From Acidimicrobiia bacterium (GTDB lineage: Bacteria; Actinomycetota; Acidimicrobiia; Spongiisociales; UBA5794): DNA of 36,674 bases. The stretch is from assembly GCA_027036355.1 (NCBI GenBank), contig JALVQZ010000146.1, positions 1 to 36,674 on the forward strand, in the 5' to 3' direction. Positions 859 to 13,567 of this stretch are shown here, piece by piece (position 1 is the stretch's first letter; each line of letters starts with the position of its first letter). The notes under the pieces were generated by a model. It did no database searches. It was not told the DNA's origin and saw nothing but the letters and a program-made list of their open reading frames with translations. The position numbers were made by a program, and so were the translations under genes.

Positions 859-1155
859 ATGAACACTTCAACGACTCTTGAACAGTTGACGAAGGAGGAA
901 CGGGCCGCTCTCTTCCATGCCCTCGCCGACCCCAACCGGCTCGACATCCTCGACCTGCTCTCCCCGGAGATCCGCTGCAACTGCCACCTCCAGGAGCAGC
1001 TCGACCTCGCCCCCAACCTCCTCTCCTACCACCTCAAGGTGTTGCGGGAGGCCGGGCTCATCGAGGGCAAACGGCGAGGCAAGTGGATCGACTACGCCAT
1101 CACCGACGACGCCAGGAACCGCATCGCCGCGGCGCTGCCGGAGGGGCTCCGGTGA
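859..1155 (+). CDS. arsR: ArsR/SmtB arsenic-responsive repressor
   Basis: This is a 98-residue winged-helix repressor, a normal length for ArsR. The core runs from FHALADPNRLDILDLL (19-34) through the recognition helix NLLSYHLKVLREAGL to the wing GKRRGKWIDYAI. Cys40 and Cys42 form the C-x-C of the alpha-3 helix, matching the Cys32-Val-Cys34 As(III)/Sb(III) site of E. coli ArsR; metal binding there would release the operator. The start is fixed by a consensus promoter whose -10 box lies 6 nt upstream. The gene heads an operon with a permease, a small thioredoxin and acr3, and its stop codon overlaps the GTG of the permease. Two candidate operators flank the transcription start, one of them inside codons 3-8, so autoregulation is likely. 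Confidence 0.93.
   Translation: MNTSTTLEQLTKEERAALFHALADPNRLDILDLLSPEIRCNCHLQEQLDLAPNLLSYHLKVLREAGLIEGKRRGKWIDYAITDDARNRIAAALPEGLR
867..882. promoter_or_regulatory. Candidate ArsR operator 2 (TTCAA-N6-TTGAA)
   Basis: This is a perfect 5-bp dyad, TTCAA / TTGAA with a 6-nt spacer, lying within codons 3-8 of arsR just downstream of the predicted transcription start. It repeats the layout of the dyad at 813-828. Confidence 0.5.
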
Positions 1156-2207
1156 GCGTCTTCCTCCCCGAGCCCGGTACCCGACGCAGCCCGGCGCACC
1201 TGTGGGGCCTCGCCGTCGCCGCCGCCTTCGCCTGGTTCGTCGGCTACGCCCTCAACGGTCGGTTCTGGGACCGGATCGTCTACGACGTCTTCGGGCTCGA
1301 CCCCCAGAGCCGCCTCGGCGAGGCCGTGCACTTCTTCGTGTTCGACACCACGAAGATCCTCCTGCTCCTCGGCGGGATCATCTTCATCGTCACGGTCCTG
1401 CGCAGCTTCATCACCATCGAACGGACCCGCAGCCTGCTCGGCGGCAGACGTGAAGGCCTCGGCAACGTCGCCGCCGCCGGCCTGGGGATCGTCACGCCCT
1501 TCTGTTCGTGCTCGGCGGTTCCGGCCTTCATCGGCTTCGTCGCCGCCGGCGTCCCGCTCGGGGTCACGCTGAGCTTCCTCATCGCCTCCCCCATGGTGAA
1601 CGAGGTCGCCGTCATCCTGATCTTCGGCATGTTCGGATGGCGGATCGCCACCCTCTACGTCGTGTTCGGCCTGCTCGTCGCCGTCGCCGCCGGCTACGTG
1701 CTCGGCCGTCTCCGCCTCGAGAAGTGGGTCGAATCGTTCGTCTTCGAGACCAAGCTCCGCGGCGAGCTCGTCGAACCGTCCACCGACATGCCCTGGGAGG
1801 ACCGTTTCGCCCTCGGCTGGCAGGAGGTCAAGACGATCATCGCCAAGATCTGGCCGTACCTGCTCGTCGGCATCGCCCTCGGTGCCGCCATCCATGGCTG
1901 GGCGCCGGAGGACCTGTTCGCCCGCTGGGCGGGATCGGGCAACGTCCTGGCCGTACCCATCGCGGTCGTCGTCGGGATCCCGTTGTACTCGGGCGCCGCG
2001 GGGATCATCCCCCTCGTCCAGGCCCTCTCCGACAAGGGCGTCGCCCTGGGCACCGTGCTCGCCTTCATGATGGCGGTCGTCGCCCTGTCGCTGCCCGAGA
2101 TGATCCTCCTCCGCCGGGTCCTCAAGCCGAAGCTCCTCGCCACGTTCGTCGCCGTCGTCGGGACCGGCATCCTCGCCGTCGGCTACCTGTTCAACGCCGT
2201 CATCTGA
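1152..2207 (+). CDS. ArsP-like permease (DUF318 / PF03773 family)
   Basis: This is an integral membrane permease of 351 residues with about eight to ten hydrophobic segments. The family signature TPFCSCSAVPAFIGF places Cys118 and Cys120 in a membrane helix, followed by the conserved GVPLGVTLSFLIASPMVNE. A second half begins near residue 235 with IWPYLLVGIALG and GIPLYSGAAGIIPL. Members include ArsP, which exports trivalent organoarsenicals, and uncharacterised metal-efflux permeases; the ars context favours an arsenic substrate, but this is inferred. The GTG start overlaps the arsR stop (GTGA), indicating translational coupling. A mini-thioredoxin gene follows after 19 nt, a pairing common for this family and consistent with thiol chemistry on the substrate or the permease. 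Confidence 0.88.
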   Translation: MSVFLPEPGTRRSPAHLWGLAVAAAFAWFVGYALNGRFWDRIVYDVFGLDPQSRLGEAVHFFVFDTTKILLLLGGIIFIVTVLRSFITIERTRSLLGGRREGLGNVAAAGLGIVTPFCSCSAVPAFIGFVAAGVPLGVTLSFLIASPMVNEVAVILIFGMFGWRIATLYVVFGLLVAVAAGYVLGRLRLEKWVESFVFETKLRGELVEPSTDMPWEDRFALGWQEVKTIIAKIWPYLLVGIALGAAIHGWAPEDLFARWAGSGNVLAVPIAVVVGIPLYSGAAGIIPLVQALSDKGVALGTVLAFMMAVVALSLPEMILLRRVLKPKLLATFVAVVGTGILAVGYLFNAVI

Positions 2208-2494: not shown

Positions 2495-3553
2495 ATGACG
2501 GCGCCCCCGGACACGTCGGTCGCCACCCGCCTGTCCGTACTCGACCGCTACCTGCCGCTGTGGATCCTGCTCGCCATGGTGGCGGGTCTCGGACTGGGAC
2601 GCACCTTCCCCGACCTCAACGACGCCCTCGACACGATCAAGATCGACACCGTCTCGCTCCCGATCGCCCTCGGGCTCCTCGCCATGATGTACCCGGTCCT
2701 CGCCAAGGTCCGGTACGACGAGATCGGCGAGGTCACCGCCGACCGGAAGATGATGGGGATGTCGCTCCTCCTCAACTGGGTCGTCGGACCGGCCGTCATG
2801 TTCGCCCTGGCGTGGATCCTTCTGCCCGACCTGCCCGCCTACCGGACCGGCCTCATCATCGTCGGGTTGGCCCGCTGCATCGCGATGGTGCTCATCTGGA
2901 ACGACCTCGCCTGCGGGAGCGCCGAGATGGCGGCCGTGCTCGTCGCCATCAACTCGGTGTTCCAGGTCGTCGCCTACGCCGTCCTGGGATGGTTCTACCT
3001 CCAGGCGCTCCCCGTGTGGCTCGGTCTCGAAGGTGGCGCCGCCCTCGACGTGTCCATGTGGGCGATCGCCAAGACCGTGCTGATCTTCCTCGGGATCCCG
3101 CTCGTCGCCGGCTACCTGACCCGCCGGTGGGGGGAGCGCACCAGAGGCGTCGAATGGTACGAGACGCGGTTCTTGCCTCGCATCGGGCCGATCGCCCTGT
3201 GGGGTCTGCTGTTCACCGTCGTCGTCATGTTCGCCCTCCAGGGCGAGACGATCACCGCCCGCCCCTTCGACGTCGTCCGGATCGCCCTGCCGCTCCTCGC
3301 CTACTTCGGGATCATGTGGGGCGGGTCGTTCCTCGCCGGCTGGCGCATGGGGTTCCCCTACGACCGCACCACGGCGATGGCGTTCACCGCCGCAGGCAAC
3401 AACTTCGAGCTCGCCATCGCCGTCGCCATCGGGGTCTTCGGGATCGCCTCCGGAGAGGCGCTCGCCACCGTCGTCGGGCCGCTCATCGAGGTGCCCGCCC
3501 TCATCGCGCTCGTCTACGCCTCCCTGTGGGCGCGCCGCCACCTGTACGGGTGA
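2495..3553 (+). CDS. acr3: ACR3-family arsenite efflux transporter
   Basis: This encodes a 352-residue membrane protein with about ten transmembrane helices, the usual ACR3 size. It should export As(OH)3 from the cytoplasm. Family hallmarks are GLARCIAMVLIWNDLACG, in which Cys128 is the essential Cys of TM4, and AAGNNFELAIAVAIGVFG in TM9, which carries the essential Glu. The N-terminal LDRYLPLWILLAM is also typical. It is the last gene of the arsR-permease-thioredoxin operon, 25 nt after the thioredoxin stop. The ribosome binding site is weak. It ends 30 bp before the convergent ferredoxin gene. Antimonite transport is possible as a side activity in this family. Confidence 0.95.
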   Translation: MTAPPDTSVATRLSVLDRYLPLWILLAMVAGLGLGRTFPDLNDALDTIKIDTVSLPIALGLLAMMYPVLAKVRYDEIGEVTADRKMMGMSLLLNWVVGPAVMFALAWILLPDLPAYRTGLIIVGLARCIAMVLIWNDLACGSAEMAAVLVAINSVFQVVAYAVLGWFYLQALPVWLGLEGGAALDVSMWAIAKTVLIFLGIPLVAGYLTRRWGERTRGVEWYETRFLPRIGPIALWGLLFTVVVMFALQGETITARPFDVVRIALPLLAYFGIMWGGSFLAGWRMGFPYDRTTAMAFTAAGNNFELAIAVAIGVFGIASGEALATVVGPLIEVPALIALVYASLWARRHLYG

Positions 3554-3583: not shown

Positions 3584-4993
3584 TCACCGGCAGTTCAAGC
3601 AGCGGCGAGAGATCAGATCGACCGTGCCCGCGAGGTCGGGCCCCAGCATCGAGCGGATACGCTCCAGCATCGCCGAAGGAGCGATCGGACCCCTACAGAC
3701 CTCGCAGGTGGCCGTCGTCGCGGACCGGACCGTTCGTCGTCCGAGAACGAGTTCGGCCACGTCGAGACACCGCTCGAGGGTGATCGCCCCATGCGCTCGT
3801 TCGGGACACGTGGCCACGCACGCACCGCATCCGACACAGAGCAACGGGTCGACCGTGATCTCGATCTCGCCATCGATCCTGCCCGAACGCAGCGCCGTTG
3901 ACGGGCACACGCTCGTGCACTGCTCGCACGCCGTGCACGTCGCAGCATCGATGGCGACGACGCCCGCCGAGCCCGCCTCGACGACGGCATCGTCGACCGA
4001 CAGCGCATCGGCCAGCGCCAAGAACGCCTCGGCATCTCCCCACGACTCCCCGAACGCTCCCGCTCCGGATCCGAGCGGATCGGGGACCATCGGACGGGAC
4101 CGGCGATGGAGCCGCTCCGCGGTCGAACCCAGCTCGTCCAAGATCGCACCAGCCGCCTTGCGTCGTTCCTTGAGGACCAGGTCGTTGCCGAGCTCGCATC
4201 CGATGTCCGTGCACGAGGGGGCCCCGATGGCGCCCGCTCCGAGCACGAGTGGCGCCAGCAGCCATCCCACGGTCAACATGCCCGTGCACGGGACCTCCAC
4301 CGGGAACCACCCGTCGACCGGCGGCGCCGCCACGGCATCGCGGCAGCGGTACTCGATGCCCACCGGAACGTCCGACGCCTCCACGATCGCCCGGATCTGT
4401 GCCGCGACCTGCCCCGTCGTGGCGGTCGGATTGGTGGTGGCCCCGGTCGGACACGTCGTCGTGCAGATCCCACACGCCACGCAGAGGTCCATGTCGTAGG
4501 AGACCTGGCCTGCGTCCCAGCGGAGAGCCCCCGAAGGACAGGCATCGACACACAACCGGCATCCACGCTCGGCCGCGCAGGTCGTCCGGTCGATCGCCGG
4601 CGCCGCGATGTACTGCGGGACGGTCATGGCGAACAGGCGACGCCTCGAGAGCAGCTCGGGCCATCGCATCTTGGCGTGCTCGGGCCCCGAGCCGGGGAAC
4701 GCCCGATGCCGAGCGAGGGCGCCTGCGGCCGCGACGGTCAGCCAGGGTTCCGTTGCGGGTCCCGCCAGCTCGACGACCGGTACGCCGAGCGGATCGGCAC
4801 CGCGCTTGCGAAGGGCGCCCTGGAGGAAGCCGCGGTCGAACTCGCCGGCGTGCAGCATCACGGCCTCGACCTCGGCGAGCTCGGCGGCGACGAGGGAACC
4901 GGGATCCCCGCAGAGACCGGCGATGGCAACCACCTCGGTCCCCGGGATCGTCGGGATCGGCGTGTCGTGATCGGCGCAGACGACGAGGCTCAT
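3584..4993 (-). CDS. Multi-cluster ferredoxin with MvhD-like central domain
   Basis: This encodes a 469-residue soluble protein without a signal peptide. A ferredoxin pair sits at about 130-185, including a CAAERGCRLCVDACP motif and CVACGICTTTCP. A central domain at about 195-290 has VEVPCTGMLTVGWLLAPLVLGAGAIG, SCTDIGCELGN and KERRKAAGAILDELG, resembling the MvhD/hydrogenase delta [2Fe-2S] subunit family. A second ferredoxin pair follows (CTACEQCTSVCP, CVGCGACVATCP). The C-terminus has CEVC and CLNC, a possible metal-binding knuckle. Such proteins pass electrons between flavo- or heterodisulfide-type enzymes and ferredoxin pools. It is the last gene of the molybdoenzyme operon, and its ATG overlaps the TorD stop by 4 nt. 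It may connect the cytoplasm to the respiratory complex or serve in cofactor maturation. The exact domain order appears unusual. Confidence 0.8.
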   Translation of the reverse strand: MSLVVCADHDTPIPTIPGTEVVAIAGLCGDPGSLVAAELAEVEAVMLHAGEFDRGFLQGALRKRGADPLGVPVVELAGPATEPWLTVAAAGALARHRAFPGSGPEHAKMRWPELLSRRRLFAMTVPQYIAAPAIDRTTCAAERGCRLCVDACPSGALRWDAGQVSYDMDLCVACGICTTTCPTGATTNPTATTGQVAAQIRAIVEASDVPVGIEYRCRDAVAAPPVDGWFPVEVPCTGMLTVGWLLAPLVLGAGAIGAPSCTDIGCELGNDLVLKERRKAAGAILDELGSTAERLHRRSRPMVPDPLGSGAGAFGESWGDAEAFLALADALSVDDAVVEAGSAGVVAIDAATCTACEQCTSVCPSTALRSGRIDGEIEITVDPLLCVGCGACVATCPERAHGAITLERCLDVAELVLGRRTVRSATTATCEVCRGPIAPSAMLERIRSMLGPDLAGTVDLISRRCLNCR

Positions 4994-5682
4994 CGGGACG
5001 GCTCCATGACGGACCGCTCCAGGAAGCGCACCACCCCGGCGTCATGCCGCACGAACGACGCGACGGCGGGCCCCAGCTCGGCGTAGAACGCCACGGTTTC
5101 GGCCGCCGACATCCGGGCAACGAAGTGCGGGAGCCAGACGCCCAGATGGCGGTCGAGGAACTCCCGCTGATGGCCGATCGTCAGTTCGAGACGGCGATCG
5201 TTCGCCGCCGATCGGGAGTCCGCCTCCCTGGCGCACAGCGCCGCCATCACCTCCAGCTCGATGGACACGTGGTCGAGGGTGTCGGCGACGGCATCGGTCG
5301 GCGCCAGCCGGTACCGATCGTAGGCGGCGCGGAGCTCGGCGAGGACCTCGCCGACCTCCCCACGGATCGGATCGGCCCCGTAGAAGGACTCCGTCGGAGG
5401 GCTGATCGCCCCCCCGATCCCGGTCGCGAACATGCGCACGTACTCGACCCGGAGCCCACGCGGATCACCGGCGGCGGCCACCGCCGCATCTCTCCATCGG
5501 CTCCATTCCCGGTAGAAGGCCAGGTACGGCAACCCCATGGCCTCGAGCATCTCGGTACCGGCGACGATGTCGCGGATCCGGTCCGGCTCCGGCTCCAGGA
5601 ACGCGGCCGCGAAGACGCGGTACATGCCTTGCCGGAGCCGGGCCAGTTCCTCGAGGCTCTCCGGGAGGCCGGTGTCGATCAC
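4990..5682 (-). CDS. TorD/DmsD-family molybdoenzyme chaperone
   Basis: This is a 230-residue all-helical protein of the TorD family. Members bind the Tat signal and apo-form of a DMSO-reductase-family catalytic subunit in the cytoplasm until the molybdenum cofactor is loaded. Visible features are RQGMYRVFAAAFLEPEP at the N-terminus, VEYVRMFATG, and PPTESFYG near residue 100, followed by DHVSIELEVMAALC and LDRHLGVWLPHF, all usual for the family. The start is the GTG at 5682, which overlaps the stop of the small membrane protein gene (GTGA); no better start was found. The stop overlaps the ATG of the downstream ferredoxin. It almost certainly serves the Tat-dependent catalytic subunit encoded first in this operon. 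Confidence 0.88.
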   Translation of the reverse strand: MIDTGLPESLEELARLRQGMYRVFAAAFLEPEPDRIRDIVAGTEMLEAMGLPYLAFYREWSRWRDAAVAAAGDPRGLRVEYVRMFATGIGGAISPPTESFYGADPIRGEVGEVLAELRAAYDRYRLAPTDAVADTLDHVSIELEVMAALCAREADSRSAANDRRLELTIGHQREFLDRHLGVWLPHFVARMSAAETVAFYAELGPAVASFVRHDAGVVRFLERSVMEPSR

Positions 5683-5891
5683 TTCCCGCCCTTGTAGACG
5701 CTGTAGAAGGCGCCGGCCGAGAAGGCGATCAGCACCCCCAGCACGAAGATCCCGGCCGCGAAGGGCACCCGCGGGTTGCTGCACGCCACCGTGGTGTTGC
5801 ATGCGGGGGTCGTCCAGAACAGGTAGCTGACGACCATCAAGCCGACGCCGACGACGGCGATGGCGGTCGTGATCCAACCTCGGGTGGTCAT
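5679..5891 (-). CDS. Small two-helix membrane protein of unknown function
   Basis: This encodes 70 residues with two hydrophobic helices: about 6-27 (TTAIAVVGVGLMVVSYLFW) and about 45-65 (FAAGIFVLGVLIAFSAGAF). The loop between them carries two cysteines in CNTTVAC, which could form a disulfide or bind a metal. The first helix is probably N-in, so the Cys loop would face outside; this is a topology guess. No family was recognised. The ATG overlaps the NrfD stop by 4 nt and the stop overlaps the TorD start, so it is translated as part of the operon. A stabilising small subunit of the membrane complex is the simplest idea. Confidence 0.75.
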   Translation of the reverse strand: MTTRGWITTAIAVVGVGLMVVSYLFWTTPACNTTVACSNPRVPFAAGIFVLGVLIAFSAGAFYSVYKGGK

Positions 5892-7180
5892 TGCTCTGCC
5901 TCCTCCAAGGGAACGATCGGGAACACCTTCATGAACACGCCGATCATGATCGCTCCGAGGGAGAACAGACCGAACACGACGGCGAACTCCACCCAGTTCG
6001 GCGTGTACGAGCCGATGGGGTAGGGAAGGAGCTGGCCGTGGGTCTGGCTCGGAACCACGATGAGGTAGCGCTTGGCGACCGCCCCGATGTTGACGAGGAT
6101 CCCCGCCGCGACCGCCGCCGCGATCGTCCATCGTCTCGTCAGCGCCTTCCAGGTCAGCAGCACCGCCGCCGCGACCAGCGACACGATCGCCCCCCAGAAG
6201 ATCCAGGCGTACGTGCCCTTGAGCAACGCGTCGGAGAGCACCTGCTCGGCCGCGCTCGCCTGGTAGGTGATCGTCAGGATCTCGACGGCCGTGAAGTACA
6301 GATAGACGAGCAACAGCCCCAGGAGGAGCTTCGCCAACCACGCGAAGGCGTCGACCGTGATGCGCTTCTCGGTCTTGGTCGCCCAGCGGACGATCGCCGC
6401 CAACATGATCAGGTTGCCGATCCCCGAGACGCCGGCGAGCACCACGAACCCGGGAGCCTGCAACGAGCCGAACCATCCGGGACGGCCGACCTGCAGACCG
6501 AACACGAACCCGACCGTGGAGTGGGCGATCACCAGCAGCGGCAGGATGGCGATGGCGAGCCAGAACGTGGCCCTCCGGTCGATCCTCCGTTGCTCGGGCG
6601 TGTCCTCGTAGCCCGCCGCCAGGAAGCGGTACAGCCCCTGGAACCGGGACGGCTGCAAAGCCAGCCTCGCCGCGTCTCGGCGGCTCGTCACGTACAGGTA
6701 CACGAGACTGGCGAACAGGTACCCCGCGATCACCATCGAGAACGTGCCGAAGAACGGCGACTGAGGTCGCCCGAACTCGAACAGGTTCACGATCGCTCGC
6801 CACGGGTGCTCCAGATCCGCCAGGATCGCCAGCGCCCCCAAGATGAGGGAGACCACGGTCAGCAGCTCCCCCATCCGGGCGACCGGCTCGAGCTTCTCGA
6901 TCTTGAAGATCCGGATCAGCGCCGCCACGGTGATGCCGGCGAAGCTCACACCGATGAAGTAGACGTAGTAGGCGACGTACAGACCCCACGTCGCTCCTCC
7001 GCCCGTCCCGAGGTCGCGCAGGCCCGTCACGATGAGCCCGTTGCCGAGCTGCTGGAAGTAGGCGTACAGCCCGACGACGGTGACCGCCACCATCGCCGCG
7101 AAGAACGCGATCCATCCGGTCGACAGCCTGCCGATGCCTTGCGGGAGCTCTCTCTTTGTCGTCATGGTCTCGGTGGTCAC
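5888..7180 (-). CDS. NrfD/PsrC-type membrane anchor subunit
   Basis: This is a polytopic membrane protein of 430 residues with about nine or ten transmembrane segments. It belongs to the NrfD/PsrC quinone-interacting family that anchors DMSO-reductase-type enzymes. Features include the first helix STGWIAFFAAMVAVTVVG, the conserved YVYFIGVSFAGI segment, LADLEHPWRAIVNLF and VIAHSTVGFVFGLQ. Such subunits exchange electrons between the menaquinone pool and the ferredoxin subunit. The GTG at 7180 overlaps the ferredoxin-subunit stop (GTGA) and is taken as start; an ATG at 7165 is an alternative. It lies between the ferredoxin subunit and the small membrane protein, in the standard A-B-C order. Confidence 0.92.
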   Translation of the reverse strand: MTTETMTTKRELPQGIGRLSTGWIAFFAAMVAVTVVGLYAYFQQLGNGLIVTGLRDLGTGGGATWGLYVAYYVYFIGVSFAGITVAALIRIFKIEKLEPVARMGELLTVVSLILGALAILADLEHPWRAIVNLFEFGRPQSPFFGTFSMVIAGYLFASLVYLYVTSRRDAARLALQPSRFQGLYRFLAAGYEDTPEQRRIDRRATFWLAIAILPLLVIAHSTVGFVFGLQVGRPGWFGSLQAPGFVVLAGVSGIGNLIMLAAIVRWATKTEKRITVDAFAWLAKLLLGLLLVYLYFTAVEILTITYQASAAEQVLSDALLKGTYAWIFWGAIVSLVAAAVLLTWKALTRRWTIAAAVAAGILVNIGAVAKRYLIVVPSQTHGQLLPYPIGSYTPNWVEFAVVFGLFSLGAIMIGVFMKVFPIVPLEEAEQ

Positions 7181-7929
7181 CGCTGCACCTCCGTCAAGGG
7201 ACGTTCGATCTCCCGGGTCTCCGCGGTCGGCGGACCGCCCCCGACGTAGTACACGCTCGGGTCGGTCCCCAGCTCCTCCAGCAGCTGGAACCCTGCCCGC
7301 TCCCGCAGGTACGTCGACAACGGCCCTTCGGGGTCTTCCACGTCGCCGAAGTGGATGGCATGGACCGGGCACACCTCGGCGCATGCCGGTTCCAGGCCCT
7401 TCTCGACCCGGTGCACGCAGAACGTGCACTTCTCCATCACGCCGACCGAATGGGCACTGCCGGCGGTCATGCGCTGTTCGTCGCCCTGGGGTCGGTCCAG
7501 GTCCGGGTTCTTGTACGGCGGGATCACCCCGCCGGTGACCGCCTCGACCTCCGGATCGGTGAAATCGACGTCGTAGGCGGCGAACGCCTCGGTCGGAGTG
7601 CGCCAGTTGTAGTAGTTCACGCCGTACGGGCACGCCACCTCGCAGTACCGGCAACCGATACACCGATCGGCGTCGGTGAGGACGATGCCGTCGCCGCGAC
7701 GGAACCGGGCGCCCACGGGGCACACCTTGACGCACGGCGGGTTGTTGCAGTGCTGGCAGGGCCGGGGCATGAACGACATCTTCGTGTCGGGGAACTCCCC
7801 CGTCTCGGTCCTGAACACGTACATCCAGAACACCGCCTGGGGAGTGTTGTTCTCGATCTTGCAGGCCTCCATGCACGCCCGGCACCCTTGGCACCGATCG
7901 AGGTTGATGGCCATCGCGTATTTCGCCAT
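7177..7929 (-). CDS. Four-cluster [4Fe-4S] electron-transfer subunit (PsrB/DmsB-like)
   Basis: This encodes 250 residues with sixteen cysteines in four ferredoxin-like sets: CQGCRACMEAC near residue 13, CQHCNNPPCVKVCP near 57, CIGCRYCEVACP near 90, and CTFCVHRVEKGLEPACAEVCP near 160. This is the pattern of the B subunits of polysulfide, thiosulfate, tetrathionate, arsenate and DMSO reductases, which wire the molybdenum subunit to the quinone-reactive anchor. There is no signal of its own, so it should be exported with the catalytic subunit by the Tat system. It starts 3 nt after the catalytic-subunit stop and overlaps the NrfD start. Confidence 0.95.
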   Translation of the reverse strand: MAKYAMAINLDRCQGCRACMEACKIENNTPQAVFWMYVFRTETGEFPDTKMSFMPRPCQHCNNPPCVKVCPVGARFRRGDGIVLTDADRCIGCRYCEVACPYGVNYYNWRTPTEAFAAYDVDFTDPEVEAVTGGVIPPYKNPDLDRPQGDEQRMTAGSAHSVGVMEKCTFCVHRVEKGLEPACAEVCPVHAIHFGDVEDPEGPLSTYLRERAGFQLLEELGTDPSVYYVGGGPPTAETREIERPLTEVQR

Positions 7930-7932
7930 GCG

Positions 7933-10536
7933 TTATCCCTTCAGCACTCGAACCTTGACGTGGAACGACTGATCGGCCGTACAGACCATGTAGCCCTCAC
8001 CGGTGTAGAAGATCTCGTTGGGCGAGGGTCCGAGACCCTTGTTGCGCTCGGGACTCCACCCGCCGAAGTGGTGGGGCATGCCCACGACGTCGGGCCGGAA
8101 CGCCTCCGACAGGGCGACGACGGTACGGAGTTGCCGCGTCTCGCCCGTGAGGGCGTTGTGGGATTCGACGACGACCTCGTCGCCCTCGCCGACCCCGAGT
8201 CTGCGGGCGGTCTCGGGGTTCATGTCGAGTCGCTGCTTGCCGCTGAGCTCGGTGAGCAGCGGGATCATCGACGTTCTCGACTGCTTGTGGGTGACCAGGT
8301 GGTACGAGATCAGGGTCAGGTCGTACTCGGCGGGCGACTGCTCGAACGTCGGTGTCCGCCAGGTCGGGAACGCGGTGTAGTCCCGCCAGTAGACCTCGTC
8401 GGCGCCCAGCTCCTGCTGCTTGCGTTGAGCGACGAGCAGGCTCTCGCCGTAGAGCCGATGCAGCGCCCCTTTGAAGGGTGGATCCGTGGCGTAGCCGTAG
8501 CGCTTGGTCGCCGCGACCTCTCCCTTGATCCACACACCGTTCTTCTCGAAGTACTCGATCCCGCCTTCGAGCCCCTCCATCCGGGACCACCGGTCGAAGA
8601 TGTCGCGCACGTCGGGCTTCTCGTCGAGGGGCAAGGCGAACTCGTCCTCGAGGGGCAACGCCTTGTTGATCTGCGCGATGTAGCCGTCTTCTCCGTAGAG
8701 GACGCCGAGCTTCTCGCACAGGTCGATGTAGATCTCGATCTCCCCACGGCTGTCGAACAGCGGATCCATCACCGGGAGTCGCAGCGCCTTGCCGTCGATG
8801 TACTGGTCGGACGCCGAGGACGGCCCTTCGTACTTCTCCATGGTGGCCGTCGGCAGCACCACGTCGGCGAAGTAGTCGGCGGTCTCCGACAGCCATGGCG
8901 ACAGGACGGCGACGAACTCGAACTTGCCGTACGAGTCGAGGAAGTCCTTCTGCGACGGGAAGGCCGTCAGCGGGTTGACGTAGTGGAGGATGGCGACCTT
9001 CGGCAGCTTCTCCACCTCGTACTTGGCCGGGTCCTGCATGACCTTGGCGACGATCCCGGGGAACCCGGTGTTGATCGGGAAGAACTTCGAGTTCTTCAGC
9101 GTGAAGTCGTAGGGGCCCTCCTCGACCTTGAGGTTCTCGAACTTGGCGTAGTTCTTGTAGATCTTCCATGTGAAGTCCGACAGCTGTCCGCCGACGGCCC
9201 CGGGGGCGCCGACGAGCATCGAGACCATGGTCATCGCCCTCACGGTCTGGAAGCCCAGCTCCTGTTGGGCCATGTGGTACGCCATGATGCCCACCGGCCG
9301 GTAGGGGATCTCCACGCCGTCGACGACGATCGACGCGCCGATGTTGGCGTTCTCCCCGAACTCGGCGGCGATCTCACGGATATCGTCGGCCGGGATGCCG
9401 GTGATGTCGGACGCCCACTCGGGGGTATAGGGGTCGACGTGTTCGGTGAACAGCTGGAACGCCGGCTTGACCGGGACGCCGTCGACGTCGAACTCGCCCG
9501 TCAACGCGGGGTCCTGCGCTTCGGCATGCGGCACCGCCTGCCCGGTCGCCAGGTCCCACACGAGGGCCGGAGGCTGGTCACCTTCCTCGGCGTCGGCGGG
9601 AAGCTCACCGCGGACGATGAGGCCGTCGGGGCCGACGAGCTCGGGGGAGTTCGTGTACGTCTTGAGATACGGTTCGTCGAGGTGACCCAGCGCGATCAAC
9701 TCGCGGCACAGCGCCAACGCGAAGGCCATGTCGGTCGCCGGCTTGATCGGCACCCACTTGTCGGCGAAGGGCCCGGCCGATCGCAACCGTGGGTCGAGGT
9801 GGACGATCTTGAGCCCGTTCTTCTCCCGAGCGTCGAGCATCTGCTGGGGCCAGGTGATCCAGCAGGTCTTGTTCCCGCCGGCGTTGGTGATGTTCCAGCC
9901 CCACGAGAGGATGTACTTGGAGTGCTTGAAGTCGGGATGGAGAACGGCGTGGGTGCCGAGGGTGTACTCGAGCGCCCGGTACCCCGCGTCCGAGCAGTAT
10001 GCGCCGTGACCGAGCTTGGTGGCTCCGGTGGCCTTGACGAACGCCGTGTCGTAGAACACCTTGGCCTTCGATCGGCCCTTCTGCCAGAGGAAGAGCTTGG
10101 GGTCCTCTTCGAGGACGGGCTTGACCTTCGAGGCGATCAGCTCGAGGGCCTCGTCCCAGGTGGCGGCCCGGAACTCCCCTGGGCCTCCCTTACCGTTGGT
10201 GCGGATGAGGGGCGTCTTGACCCGCTGCGGATCGTAGACCGCGGCGATCTGGGCGACGCCCTTGGGGCAGAGGGTTCCCTTGTTCTTCGGATGGGCGTCG
10301 AGGCCCTCCAGCTTGACCACCCGGCCGTCGATACGGCGAGCCACGATGCCGCAGTCCTGCTTGCCGATCCAGCAGGTGGTGTTGACGAAGTCCTCCCGGA
10401 TCTGCTGGGCCAGCAGCAGTTTGTTCGTCGGCTCCACGGTCTCGAAACCGCCGAAGAGGAACCGCTTCGCCGCCAACGTCCCTCCGGCGACGGCAGCCGA
10501 GCCCTTGATGAACGTCCGCCGCGTGAGATCGACCAT
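7933..10536 (-). CDS. Tat-exported molybdopterin oxidoreductase, Cys-Mo type
   Basis: This is the 867-residue catalytic subunit of a DMSO-reductase-family complex. The N-terminus has a Tat signal, LTRRTFIKGSAAVAGG. The molybdenum ligand is predicted to be Cys181 (GHGAYCSD), as in polysulfide, thiosulfate, tetrathionate and arsenate reductases. The N-terminal cluster region has Cys55, Cys62 and Cys90, but the second Cys of the usual C-x2-C-x3-C is Gly58. The start is the ATG with an ideal AGGAGG about 5 nt upstream; an in-frame ATG at 10590 is an alternative. The gene order A-B-C-small protein-TorD resembles arrABCD, and the flanking ars genes and arsenic-type ArsR favour an arsenic oxyanion. 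Sulfur compounds are the main alternative, since sequence alone cannot decide. Confidence 0.9.
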   Translation of the reverse strand: MVDLTRRTFIKGSAAVAGGTLAAKRFLFGGFETVEPTNKLLLAQQIREDFVNTTCWIGKQDCGIVARRIDGRVVKLEGLDAHPKNKGTLCPKGVAQIAAVYDPQRVKTPLIRTNGKGGPGEFRAATWDEALELIASKVKPVLEEDPKLFLWQKGRSKAKVFYDTAFVKATGATKLGHGAYCSDAGYRALEYTLGTHAVLHPDFKHSKYILSWGWNITNAGGNKTCWITWPQQMLDAREKNGLKIVHLDPRLRSAGPFADKWVPIKPATDMAFALALCRELIALGHLDEPYLKTYTNSPELVGPDGLIVRGELPADAEEGDQPPALVWDLATGQAVPHAEAQDPALTGEFDVDGVPVKPAFQLFTEHVDPYTPEWASDITGIPADDIREIAAEFGENANIGASIVVDGVEIPYRPVGIMAYHMAQQELGFQTVRAMTMVSMLVGAPGAVGGQLSDFTWKIYKNYAKFENLKVEEGPYDFTLKNSKFFPINTGFPGIVAKVMQDPAKYEVEKLPKVAILHYVNPLTAFPSQKDFLDSYGKFEFVAVLSPWLSETADYFADVVLPTATMEKYEGPSSASDQYIDGKALRLPVMDPLFDSRGEIEIYIDLCEKLGVLYGEDGYIAQINKALPLEDEFALPLDEKPDVRDIFDRWSRMEGLEGGIEYFEKNGVWIKGEVAATKRYGYATDPPFKGALHRLYGESLLVAQRKQQELGADEVYWRDYTAFPTWRTPTFEQSPAEYDLTLISYHLVTHKQSRTSMIPLLTELSGKQRLDMNPETARRLGVGEGDEVVVESHNALTGETRQLRTVVALSEAFRPDVVGMPHHFGGWSPERNKGLGPSPNEIFYTGEGYMVCTADQSFHVKVRVLKG

Positions 10537-10663: not shown

Positions 10664-10696
10664 ATGGTCCGCATCGAGCGACGGAGCGAGACATGA
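10664..10696 (+). CDS. 10-codon leader ORF coupled to arsR
   Basis: An ATG-initiated reading frame encodes MVRIERRSET and ends at a TGA that overlaps the arsR ATG by 4 nt (ATGA). Its start lies 7 nt after a TAGGCT hexamer, so it could be the true leaderless start of the transcript, with arsR translated by termination-reinitiation. The arsR gene has no good Shine-Dalgarno sequence of its own, which fits. Chance occurrence cannot be excluded for so short a frame. Confidence 0.4.
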   Translation: MVRIERRSET

Positions 10697-11049
10697 CCAC
10701 CACGACACCGCCGAACTGTTGCGCAGAGCCGGCGCCCGAGCGTCCCTTCGACGAGATCGAACTGGCGTCGATCGCCAAGGCACTGGCGCATCCCGCCCGG
10801 ATCGCCATCCTCCAGGCGTTCACCGAATGCCGTCCGCACACCGCCGGCGAGGTGGTGGCCGGTCTCGATCTGGCCCAGTCCACCGTGTCCGAGCACCTGC
10901 GGATCCTGCGCGAGGCGGGGCTCCTGTCGGCGACCCCCGATCCGCCCCGTACCTGGTACTGCATCCGCCGGCCGGTCCTCGAGCAGTTCGCCGCCCAGAT
11001 GAAGGACATCATCGACGGTCAGCTCCACGCGATGGACGCCGCCGAATAG
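10693..11049 (+). CDS. ArsR-family repressor with CC...C metal site
   Basis: This is a winged-helix ArsR-family repressor of 118 residues. The fold is visible as IAKALAHPARIAILQAF (27-43), the recognition helix STVSEHLRILREAGLL and the wing DPPRTWYCI. Vicinal Cys9-Cys10 near the N-terminus plus Cys46 reproduce the layout of the Corynebacterium glutamicum arsenic sensor (Cys15, Cys16, Cys55), so As(III) binding is plausible. The gene is divergent from the molybdoenzyme operon across a 156-bp region containing a 59-bp inverted repeat, and probably controls both directions. Its ATG overlaps the stop of a possible 10-codon leader frame. There is no strong ribosome binding site. Confidence 0.9.
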   Translation: MTTTTPPNCCAEPAPERPFDEIELASIAKALAHPARIAILQAFTECRPHTAGEVVAGLDLAQSTVSEHLRILREAGLLSATPDPPRTWYCIRRPVLEQFAAQMKDIIDGQLHAMDAAE

Positions 11050-11142: not shown

Positions 11143-11358
11143 ATGATGTACGGATGGTGGGCCCCCTTCGGAGGCCTGATGATGTTCGCCTTCTTCGCCC
11201 TGATCGTCTGGCTGATCGTCGCCGCGGTCCGGCCGGACCGAGAGGCCCAGACGAGCGGACGGACCGCCCTCGACGTCCTCGATGCCCGGTTCGCCCGCGG
11301 TGAGATCGACGACGAGGAGTACCGGACCCGCAGGTCGGTCATCGAAGGGAGCATCTGA
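11143..11358 (+). CDS. Small SHOCT-domain membrane protein
   Basis: This encodes 71 residues: a short N-terminus (MMYGWWAPFGG), one transmembrane helix at about 12-28 (LMMFAFFALIVWLIVAA), and a C-terminal SHOCT-type segment at about 40-68 with LDARFARGEIDDEEYRTRR. SHOCT segments are short oligomerisation or docking modules of uncertain function, common in small actinobacterial membrane proteins. The ATG at 11143 is chosen for its AAGGAG ribosome binding site. The stop shares one base with the ATG of the downstream Met-rich secreted protein, so the two are coupled. The cluster continues with a two-component system, suggesting an envelope metal-stress role. Confidence 0.85.
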   Translation: MMYGWWAPFGGLMMFAFFALIVWLIVAAVRPDREAQTSGRTALDVLDARFARGEIDDEEYRTRRSVIEGSI

Positions 11359-11693
11359 TGGTGAAGAAGACCTTGGCCGTCGCGGCCCTCGCCGCGGCGC
11401 TCCTGGCCGGCACGTCGGCGGCCCTGGCCTCGCCGGGCAACGACGACGCTGCCGCCCCGGCCGATCACTGGAGCGAGATGGCGACCGAGATGGGCGACGA
11501 GTGGCCCTCGATGGTCGCGCACATGCAGGAACGGCTCGGCGACGCCTTCCCCCAGATGGTGGCCCAGATGCAGGCCACCGAAGCCCACATGGACTCCATG
11601 GGGATGGGCTCTATGGGGATGGGCTCCATGGGGATGGGCTGGGACATGGAGGGTTCCTCCATGGGCTCCATGGGCACCTGGATGGACCGCTGA
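11358..11693 (+). CDS. Secreted methionine-rich protein, putative soft-metal binder
   Basis: This encodes 111 residues with a Sec signal peptide (KK, then a hydrophobic stretch to residue 23; cleavage probably near LASPG). The mature part has about seventeen methionines and several histidines. Its C-terminal half is built of MGMGS repeats, encoded by three exact-phase 15-nt units (11598-11642), followed by SMGSMGTWMD. No Cys is present. Met clusters of this kind bind Cu(I) or Ag(I) in periplasmic copper proteins, so metal sequestration outside the membrane is the favoured guess. It is coupled to the SHOCT gene and followed by a hairpin and then a two-component system. The sensor kinase of that system has a similar MGSMMD motif in its outer loop. 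No established family was recognised. Confidence 0.8.
   Translation: MVKKTLAVAALAAALLAGTSAALASPGNDDAAAPADHWSEMATEMGDEWPSMVAHMQERLGDAFPQMVAQMQATEAHMDSMGMGSMGMGSMGMGWDMEGSSMGSMGTWMDR
11598..11642 (+). repeat. 15-nt tandem repeat x3 in the Met-rich gene
   Basis: Three copies of ATGGGGATGGGC plus a variable triplet (TCT, TCC, TGG) begin at 11598, 11613 and 11628. They encode MGMGS, MGMGS and MGMGW in frame. Units of 15 nt would allow copy-number changes without frameshift. Confidence 0.85.
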
Positions 11694-11700
11694 GGCCGGC

Positions 11701-11733
11701 CCACGATCGTGGCGGGGACCTGCGGGTCCCCGC
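11701..11733 (+). terminator. Palindrome followed by a GC-rich hairpin
   Basis: CCACGATCGTGG (11701-11712) is a perfect 12-bp palindrome. It is followed by a 9-bp stem, GCGGGGACC (11712-11720) with GGTCCCCGC (11725-11733), and a 4-nt loop. Only a weak T-tract (TACCTTT) follows. It probably terminates or attenuates the Met-rich transcript before the response regulator gene; the palindrome could be a regulator site. Confidence 0.55.
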
Positions 11734-11762
11734 TACCTTTGTGCACCCGACACCGAGACGCC

Positions 11763-12455
11763 ATGCCCGGCCCCCGCATCCTCCTCGCCGACGACGAACG
11801 TGAGCTTCGCGACATGCTCACGGCCTACCTCCAAGCCGAGGGCTTCGAGGTGATCGAGGCGACCGACGGTCGAGCCGCCCTCGAGGCAGCCCGACGAGAG
11901 GAACCCGACCTCATCCTCCTCGACGTCGGAATGCCCGAGATGGACGGCTTCGAGGTCCTCGGCGAGCTTCGACGCCGCTCCAGCGTGCCGGTGATCATGC
12001 TCACCGCCCGCGCCGAGGAGGTGGACCGGGTCGTGGGACTCACCGTGGGCGCCGACGACTACGTCACCAAGCCCTTCAGCCCCCGGGAGCTGGTGGCCCG
12101 CATCAAGGCGGTCCTCCGCAGAGGACGCATGGCCGCCGAGGAGGACCGCCCTCTGCGGTTCCCGGGCCTCACCATCGACATCGCCGCCCACGAGGTCGTC
12201 AAGGACGGCGAACCGGTCGAGCTGACGACCCTCGAGTTCGATCTCCTCGTCGCCCTCGCGTCGTCGCCGGGTCGGGTGTTGAGCCGGGACCACCTGATGG
12301 AACGCGTGTGGGGATGGGACTTCGTCGGCGTCGATCGCGTCGTCGACGTCCACATCTCGAACCTGCGCCGCATCCTGGACGACGACCCCTCCGATCCCCG
12401 CTACATCGCCACCGTCCGCGGCGTGGGGTACAAGTTCATCGCCGAGCCGCTGTGA
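11763..12455 (+). CDS. OmpR/PhoB-family response regulator
   Basis: This encodes 230 residues with a receiver domain (about 5-118) and a winged-helix transcription domain (about 135-228). The acidic pocket is Asp10-Asp11, the phosphoacceptor is Asp54 (LILLDVGMPEMDG), and the conserved Lys is in VTKPFSPRELVARI. The C-terminal domain has ELTTLEFDLL, the recognition region RVVDVHISNLRRIL and the wing TVRGVGYKF. The ATG at 11763 begins the receiver fold; an upstream extension would add no conserved sequence. Its stop overlaps the GTG of the sensor kinase, so they are a cognate pair. Likely targets include the Met-rich protein operon upstream. The 12-bp palindrome at 11701 is a candidate site. Confidence 0.95.
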   Translation: MPGPRILLADDERELRDMLTAYLQAEGFEVIEATDGRAALEAARREEPDLILLDVGMPEMDGFEVLGELRRRSSVPVIMLTARAEEVDRVVGLTVGADDYVTKPFSPRELVARIKAVLRRGRMAAEEDRPLRFPGLTIDIAAHEVVKDGEPVELTTLEFDLLVALASSPGRVLSRDHLMERVWGWDFVGVDRVVDVHISNLRRILDDDPSDPRYIATVRGVGYKFIAEPL

Positions 12456-13567
12456 GACGTCTCCTGTCGACCCTCCGAGCCCGGCTGGTGATCTCTCATC
12501 TGTCGGCCGTGTTCCTCGGGGTGCTGACCACGATCCTCGTCACCGAACCGCTGACCCAGCGGTTCTTCCGAGATCACACCATGGACTCCGGGTTCGAGGG
12601 GATGATGGGCGGTGGCACGATGGGATCGATGATGGATCGGCTCCAGGACAACCTCGCGGCATCGTTCCGGTCGGCCCTCCTGGTGGCTTTCGCCGCTGCC
12701 GCGGTCACCGCCGTGATCGCCAGCATCGTGGCCGCCCGCCGCATCGCCCAACCGATCGAACAGATGAGCGAAGCCACCCTCGAGCTCGCCGAAGGCAACT
12801 ACGACCGGCGCGTGCCGGTGCCCGACGTGGTCGAACTGGCGACGCTGGCCGAGAGCGTCAACACCCTCGCTCGCTCCCTTGCCGAGACCGAGGAACGCCG
12901 GCTCCGGCTCATCAACGAGGTCGCCCACGAGCTGCGAACGCCCCTGACGACGATCGAGGGGTACATGGAGGGCCTCCTCGACGGCGTGTTCCAACCCTCC
13001 GACCAGATCTTCGGCGCCACCGCACGCGAAGCGGCGAGGCTCAAGCGTCTCGCCGCCGATCTCAGCCTCCTGTCGCGGGCAGACGAGGACGCGCTCGAGC
13101 TCCGTTTCGAGCCGGTCGACCTTGCCGCCGTCGTCGCCGACGTCGCCGGATCGCTCCGGCCCCTGTTCGTGGCCAGGGACATCTCGCTGTCGGTCGACGG
13201 CGCCGACGCCCCGATCACGGTGCGCGGGGACCGGGATCGTCTCGCCCAGGTCTTCACGAACATCATCGGCAACGCCGTGTCCTACACCGATCCGGGGGGA
13301 CGAGTCGAGGTCCGCGTCGACGTCGACCCCGACAACGCCGTGGTCACGATCGCCGACACGGGCAAGGGGATCGCTCCCGACGAACTCGAGCGGATCTTCG
13401 AGCGGTTCCATCGGGTCGACCCGAACCTCCCGGGAGGCACGGGGGTCGGGCTGACGGTCGCCCGGAGCCTCGTCCGTCGCCACGGGGGAGAGGTCGTGGC
13501 CCACTCGGACGGACCCGGGACCGGGTCGCGCTTCGTCGTCTCCCTGCCGAGGGATAGATCGTCGTAA
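12452..13567 (+). CDS. Sensor histidine kinase with Met-rich sensor loop
   Basis: This is a 371-residue membrane kinase. TM1 is about 12-31, an extracytoplasmic loop spans about 32-72, TM2 about 73-95, and HAMP about 96-148. The HisKA motif EVAHELRTPLTT has phosphoacceptor His159, and the ATPase domain shows FTNIIGNAVSY (N box), IADTGKGIAPDELERIFERF (G1/F) and GGTGVGLTVARSLV (G2). The loop is short and contains His42 and six methionines at 44, 51, 52, 57, 60 and 61 in MMGGGTMGSMMD. This suggests direct sensing of Cu(I), Ag(I) or a similar soft metal, which is inference. The GTG overlaps the regulator stop (GTGA). An architecture of short loop plus HAMP is typical of CusS/CutS-like sensors. 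Confidence 0.94.
   Translation: MRRLLSTLRARLVISHLSAVFLGVLTTILVTEPLTQRFFRDHTMDSGFEGMMGGGTMGSMMDRLQDNLAASFRSALLVAFAAAAVTAVIASIVAARRIAQPIEQMSEATLELAEGNYDRRVPVPDVVELATLAESVNTLARSLAETEERRLRLINEVAHELRTPLTTIEGYMEGLLDGVFQPSDQIFGATAREAARLKRLAADLSLLSRADEDALELRFEPVDLAAVVADVAGSLRPLFVARDISLSVDGADAPITVRGDRDRLAQVFTNIIGNAVSYTDPGGRVEVRVDVDPDNAVVTIADTGKGIAPDELERIFERFHRVDPNLPGGTGVGLTVARSLVRRHGGEVVAHSDGPGTGSRFVVSLPRDRSS

Follow-up and report, generated by a model that had tools for sequence, protein, structure and literature searches.

The described enzymes that most resemble the system reported here are molybdoenzymes of the dimethyl sulfoxide (DMSO) reductase (MopB) superfamily. ArrAB, associated with the sensory genes ArrX-S-R, combines an exported MopB subunit having a cysteine ligand to molybdenum with an iron–sulfur subunit; the arx operons (arxXSR-B2ABCD) encode, beside ArxA, an iron–sulfur subunit, an NrfD protein and a TorD-type chaperone, and have ars genes, including ArsR and a permease, as neighbours; PsrABC and PhsABC have a layout of catalytic subunit, iron–sulfur subunit and NrfD protein. 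According to the accessible parts of PMC10100899, TtrA, SrdA and an alternative arsenate reductase group form a Cys-liganded branch for sulfur, selenium and arsenic oxyanions, AioA has no protein ligand to molybdenum, and AioA and IdrA provide a precedent for a [3Fe-4S] cluster at the N-terminal iron–sulfur site (FS0) of a MopB enzyme. Here we describe a molybdoenzyme locus in a stretch of 36,674 nucleotides from an Acidimicrobiia bacterium (contig JALVQZ010000146.1, hereafter the window). Its catalytic protein, P0001, has lost the second cysteine of the FS0 motif, and by sequence comparison this loss marks out a distinct clade that extends across bacteria and archaea. We propose, with a probability of roughly 0.5, that P0001 serves as catalytic subunit in a periplasmic, quinone-linked oxidoreductase for arsenic oxyanions, most likely a respiratory arsenate reductase, of a MopB lineage separate from ArrA and ArxA.

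The catalytic gene and its altered motif are located as follows.

7933 to 10536, minus strand: catalytic molybdopterin subunit P0001, 867 amino acids, twin-arginine (Tat) signal, molybdenum ligand Cys181.
10267 to 10374, minus strand: FS0 motif Cys55-Trp-Ile-Gly58-Lys-Gln-Asp-Cys62-x27-Cys90, with Gly at the place of the second Cys (from sequence and alignment).

The motif thus reads Cys55-x6-Cys62-x27-Cys90, and the codons of Cys55 (10372–10374), Gly58 (10363–10365), Cys62 (10351–10353) and Cys90 (10267–10269) match exactly the coordinates and residues reported in a first-pass annotation of this DNA. Because the spacing between Cys55 and Cys62 is that of the canonical C-x2-C-x3-C, the second cysteine has been replaced by glycine without a deletion. 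The predicted molybdenum ligand, Cys181, is encoded at 9994–9996. The Pfam models PF00384 (Molybdopterin) and PF01568 (Molydop_binding) score above their cut-offs, which places P0001 in the DMSO reductase/MopB superfamily; the match to Molybdop_Fe4S4 is weak, and that of the N-terminal Tat signal to TAT_signal lies slightly below the cut-off.

A scan of genome contigs yielded 79 distinct loci of relatives, a biased set since CWIGKQDC was one of the six scan patterns. The motif is covered in 75 of these loci, four frames stopping short of it, and all 75 read C-W-x-G-K-Q-x-C (70 CWIGKQDC, two CWVGKQDC, and one each of CWIGKQEC, CWLGKQDC and CWIGKQGC). Cysteine at position 58 of close homologues, which the first-pass annotation had named as the sign of an error or a local mutation, was therefore found in none of the 75. 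Because of the bias of the pattern-based set, we also searched a whole-protein profile against 350 genomes from the phylum of Anaerolinea sp. (L020), 346 from that of the window and 194 from the class that includes Halomicrobium katesii, and obtained matches at E < 1e-90 in 13, 7 and 5 genomes, respectively. The scores split in two, with family members above 800 bits (or fragments) and other relatives no higher than 541 bits. None of the 17 family places that cover the motif, part of which lie in genomes already found by the pattern scan, has the second Cys; four Cys are present in each of the 14 lower-scoring relatives whose standard motif is readable. Another lower-scoring relative (L126) has an irregular Cys cluster.

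The family alignment (A2) contains 59 rows, and Cys55, Trp56, Gly58, Lys59, Gln60, Cys62, Cys90, Arg155, Lys157, Cys181 and Cys225 are invariant in all of them; the retention of Cys181, previously read from P0001 alone, is thereby borne out for the whole alignment. Lys92, after Cys90, is also kept, and position 60 is Met in two haloarchaeal members outside A2. Position 61 is Asp in 57 rows, Glu in one and Gly in one, which makes Asp61 unlikely as an obligatory fourth ligand of the cluster. That the missing cysteine is a sequencing error, or a mutation of one genome, has a vanishingly small probability: Gly58 is found in all the aligned bacterial and archaeal relatives, a complete genome (L032) among them, and also in a named plasmid record outside A2 (L088), so that this explanation is ruled out.

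In a phylogenetic analysis of 60 proteins (quick IQ-TREE, SH-aLRT support only, a single distant outgroup), the 22 family rows came together as one clade (SH-aLRT 100), whose stem measures 0.6 changes per column. The sister group consists of uncharacterized proteins having the standard four-Cys motif (L108–L118, L123 and L124, excepting the family member L113), with two copies in some genomes. The ArrA-like (seven rows), ArxA (two, from arx plasmids), PhsA-type and TtrA-type references belong to other clades; the ArrA-like references are below the NCBIfam cut-off, and most PhsA and all TtrA references were named by family search at scores below the curated cut-off. P0001 reaches no NCBIfam cut-off. 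Its best score, against the PsrA/PhsA model NF012032, is 216.2 bits (cut-off 694), followed by 139.3 bits against ArrA NF041714 (cut-off 1600, below which the eight ArrA-like reference loci also fall, at 988–1197 bits) and 52.7 bits against TtrA NF011567 (cut-off 1750). The earlier suggestion of an undescribed clade apart from the standard enzymes holds in both the tree and these model searches. Searches of the open-access literature, with subscription papers mostly outside their reach, turned up no paper that appeared to describe a C-x6-C-x27-C clade; a superfamily phylogeny contains novel lineages without labels, at least in the accessible parts of PMC10100899, and these might include the three-Cys family.

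Membership in each of the described groups was considered and rejected. P0001 is not ArrA, being below the cut-off, in a separate clade and with Gly at the second Cys place, where the seven ArrA-like tree rows have the four-Cys motif. Canonical ArrA was above the cut-off in none of the 22 family genomes searched, the best matches (222–248 bits, in two genomes) being far below those of the ArrA-like references. ArxA was rejected because P0001 does not group with it in the tree and the family's sensors are not of the ArxX type; in both ArxA references, moreover, all four FS0 Cys are present. PsrA/PhsA and TtrA were rejected on scores below the cut-offs, the former also on the absence of the four FS0 Cys present in its references, and the latter on its separate position in the tree; the TtrA references as aligned have four FS0 Cys as well. 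AioA lacks the fourth FS0 Cys, not the second; unlike AioA, the family keeps Cys181 invariantly and is paired with NrfD and a 16-Cys ferredoxin-like protein instead of a Rieske protein.

Three further residues of P0001 bear on its active site and cluster.

10072 to 10074, minus strand: Arg155 of QKGRSK; the Gly-Arg aligns with ArrA RGRY and ArxA YGRGW.
10006 to 10008, minus strand: His177, four residues ahead of the molybdenum-ligand Cys, common to the ArrA and ArxA references and present in 57 of the 59 family rows.
9862 to 9864, minus strand: Cys225, in 59 of 59 family rows; the references shown lack a Cys at this position.

The residues aligned with the Gly-Arg and His177 have a role in ArrA. 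Most PhsA references and the sister rows shown lack Gly154-Arg155 and His177, which some TtrA references share; these residues are consistent with an oxyanion pocket and may take part in oxyanion binding. The AlphaFold2 model of P0001 (mean pLDDT 90.6, pTM 0.89) has ArrA (6cz7) as its first Foldseek match. Cys225 is a candidate structural residue or distant cluster ligand. As the other three cysteines are strictly kept, FS0 most likely retains either a [3Fe-4S] cluster or a [4Fe-4S] one whose fourth ligand is distant or not a cysteine.

The case for arsenic is based on the genes around the family operons. In the window, four genes of arsenic-related families flank the operon.

10693 to 11049, plus strand: ArsR/SmtB regulator, divergent from the catalytic gene, NF033788 above cut-off, having other Cys besides a Cys-Cys close to the N-terminus.
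859 to 1155, plus strand: ArsR/SmtB regulator with C-x-C (RCNC), NF033788 above cut-off.
1155 to 2207, plus strand: ArsP_1-family permease (PF03773, 242 bits).
2495 to 3553, plus strand: ACR3 arsenite efflux transporter, TIGR00832 above cut-off.

This ACR3 gene is the sole copy found by a search of its own 2.99-Mb genome. ArsR proteins with C-x-C or Cys-Cys motifs are usually taken as arsenite sensors. Across 88 family loci, arsenic markers were counted by tblastn with fixed cut-offs; the counts are lower bounds, many loci being short, and three of the loci (L170, L171 and L172, all marker-free) repeat contigs already counted. At least one marker is present in 30 of the 88, namely a sensor in 20 and other ars genes in 11, with one locus having both; the latter 11, which include the window, match ArsR, ACR3, ArsP, ArsC, ArsA or ArsD. 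The small control of eight sister-group loci contained no marker, and the same survey found the sensor in all five ArrA-like loci and both arx loci. ACR3 is clear in the window, L028, L047 and L077, with a partial match in L174; ArsC-like genes are near the family in L028 and L051, ArsD and ArsA in L088, and C-x-C ArsR proteins, seven in seven loci, are beside or near it. If 0.8 to 1.5 ACR3 copies per ~3-Mb genome are assumed, 0.3–0.6 would be expected by chance in the DNA examined, and the probability of at least four is 0.0003–0.004; ACR3 was found in 10 of 15 chosen genomes and is hence common among the hosts. In Natronorubrum bangense the family gene (33% identity at 99% query coverage) adjoins ArsR, and a tyrosine phosphatase, ArsD and ArsA are found further out. 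The arx island of Cereibacter azotoformans has ACR3, ArsC, ArsR and a permease, like the companions of the operon in the window.

The sensor found in 20 of the 88 loci is a PhnD-type protein, whose gene usually directly precedes those of a histidine kinase and a response regulator. The best PDB matches of the L027 copy are ArrX (226 bits), AioX (134 bits) and a phosphonate-binding protein (84 bits). In AioX numbering, the pocket residues Tyr88, Cys106, Tyr131, Ser161 and His192 are kept in all 20 copies with the pocket covered, position 163 is Ser or Thr, and Asp210 is present in 19. In the sensor tree, the family sensors group with five sensors from beside ArrA-like genes, apart from ArxX (100/100), and the L055 sensor falls within the ArrX branch; their loop is ArrX-like, unlike that of ArxX. 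The accessible parts of PMC5908839 give PhnD as lacking Cys106, ArrX as binding arsenate (1 µM) and phosphate (150 µM), but not tetrathionate, thiosulphate, selenate or the other tested anions, and AioX and ArxX as likewise not binding tetrathionate, thiosulphate or selenate.

The operon of the window consists, in order, of genes for the catalytic subunit, a 16-Cys iron–sulfur subunit, NrfD, a small membrane protein, a TorD-type chaperone and a multi-cluster ferredoxin-like protein, and this gene order recurs across the family.

7177 to 7929, minus strand: four-cluster ferredoxin-like subunit (ArrB/DsrO-like), 16 of 16 cluster Cys present.
5888 to 7192, minus strand: NrfD/PsrC-type membrane anchor (PF03916), quinone-interacting by family; start approximate.
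5679 to 5891, minus strand: small two-helix membrane protein of ~70 amino acids, the tail of an open reading frame at 5679–7115; same operon place in 23 loci (cluster 7).
4990 to 5688, minus strand: TorD/Nitrate_red_del-type chaperone, PF02613 above cut-off and TIGR03482 below; start approximate.
3584 to 4993, minus strand: multi-[4Fe-4S] protein, conserved at the operon end; the Natronorubrum homologue is annotated 'hydrogenase iron-sulfur subunit'.

The operon is therefore like psr and phs in its A-B-NrfD layout, like arx in its NrfD, iron–sulfur subunit, TorD-type chaperone and ars neighbours, and like ArrAB in its exported catalytic subunit with a Cys ligand, its iron–sulfur partner and, in part of the family loci, its ArrX-type sensor. 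In the proposed route, NrfD would pass electrons from menaquinol to the B subunit with its four clusters, from which they would reach, by way of an FS0 held by Cys55, Cys62 and Cys90, a molybdenum bis(pyranopterin guanine dinucleotide) cofactor with Cys181 as ligand. Bound by Arg155, His177 and basic residues close by, arsenate would be reduced to arsenite at the molybdenum site, and the arsenite could then be exported from the cell by ACR3. We infer the activity, the reaction direction and the cluster type of the family from this body of comparisons; for the direction, towards arsenate reduction, we rely on the arsenate-type sensor and on the hosts, most of which have menaquinone as their only quinone. 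Of the possible functions, arsenic respiration has the most support, with about even odds for arsenate reduction in particular.

Several observations weigh against this proposal. Fifty-eight of the 88 family loci have no arsenic marker in the stretch examined, many of these stretches being short, and the operon of the window itself has no ArrX-type sensor. In one phylum the sensor is found in 30 of 350 genomes but in only two of the eight that bear the family. Of its 31 places, 20, picked among the better matches outside family genomes, were fetched: 13 are near TtrA-type and two near PhsA-type enzymes, none is near a family enzyme, and the remaining five have no molybdoenzyme catalytic subunit in the stretch examined. 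The sensors fetched from these places have the same pocket, so the sensor alone is insufficient to fix the substrate of the enzyme beside it. For the AlphaFold2 model, VIA-align places PsrA (2vpw, Z 33.1) first and ArrA second (Z 30.7); since this disagrees with Foldseek, fold similarity leaves the substrate undecided. Some hosts, such as the cultured SAR202 Lucifugimonas (L032), are marine aerobes and as such odd ones for arsenate respiration.

These sensor placements, together with the top NCBIfam score for PhsA and the top VIA-align match to PsrA, are what favours an enzyme that reduces some other oxyanion, such as tetrathionate, selenate or antimonate, with the arsenic genes as side effects or answering a similar ligand. 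We regard this as rather unlikely, given that tetrathionate, thiosulphate and selenate are left unbound by ArrX, AioX and ArxX (accessible parts of PMC5908839), and that the family has ACR3, ArsC, ArsA, ArsD and C-x-C ArsR as recurrent neighbours irrespective of the sensor. A fair reading of the same placements is that one arsenate sensor type serves several reductase lineages. The enzyme might also run in reverse, as an Arx-like arsenite oxidase feeding the quinone pool for detoxification or energy; the operon parallels with the arx islands (ArsR and permease neighbours included), the C-x-C or Cys-Cys ArsR proteins near the catalytic gene in several lineages, and the aerobic or microaerophilic life of some hosts would suit it. 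This appears somewhat less likely again, since the sensors are of the arsenate-binding ArrX type, not the ArxX/AioX type, and oxidation by the quinone pool would be uphill in hosts having only menaquinone. Least probable of the three is a complete loss of FS0, in an enzyme that bypasses the site or is redox-silent like the cofactor-losing ActB-like relatives: one of the four ligands is gone in every motif-covering member, but the other three Cys, Lys92 and Cys181 are kept, the B subunit keeps its 16 Cys, and after such a loss the remaining Cys would be expected to be free to vary.

If the proposed arsenic function is true, Acidimicrobiia, Chloroflexota, haloarchaea and other groups encode arsenate respiration (or arsenite oxidation) that surveys using arrA, arxA and aioA would miss. 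Reports exist of arsenate-dependent growth in the absence of canonical ArrAB (PMC9751042, in its accessible parts), and the family is a concrete candidate for the enzyme involved. More tentatively, the family could be an independently evolved lineage of bioenergetic arsenic molybdoenzymes in several bacterial phyla and archaea, with a permanently site-differentiated FS0 that raises the potential or gates electrons, and could help to explain arsenate respiration without ArrAB. The strictly conserved three-Cys FS0, minus its second ligand, would also be an unusual natural variant in which to study how cluster tuning affects electron transfer to molybdenum.

The TtrA-type molybdoenzymes near ArrX-type sensors (L191, L193–L200, L202, L203, L205 and L207), some of them with ArsP and ArsR, are candidate arsenate reductases of the TtrA branch; ArsP, ArsR or ArsC is nearby in several of the sensor loci outside family genomes. 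On a plasmid of Azoarcus sp. KH32C (L089, 7986–10625), a molybdoenzyme of a different lineage reads CHVCNIQDG, with Asp for the third FS0 Cys, and has an ArxX-type sensor, a sigma-54 regulator, ACR3 and ArsA as neighbours, so that altered FS0 motifs occur in arsenic islands of two lineages.

Elsewhere in the family, the first genes of many operons encode a periplasmic binding protein together with a histidine kinase and a response regulator of the NarL type. The closest relatives of the window (L006, L007 and L008) have kept the kinase and mostly the regulator, where the window has ArsR instead; the sensor is a fragment in L006 (1187–1504), and none is recognizable upstream of the histidine kinase in L007 and L008. 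An FmdE-like protein follows the operon in L028, L033, L040, L053 and L080. In the window, positions 11358–11693 encode a small secreted protein rich in Met and Gly, possibly metal related, which adjoins a two-component system (11709–13567) whose kinase has a Met-rich stretch.

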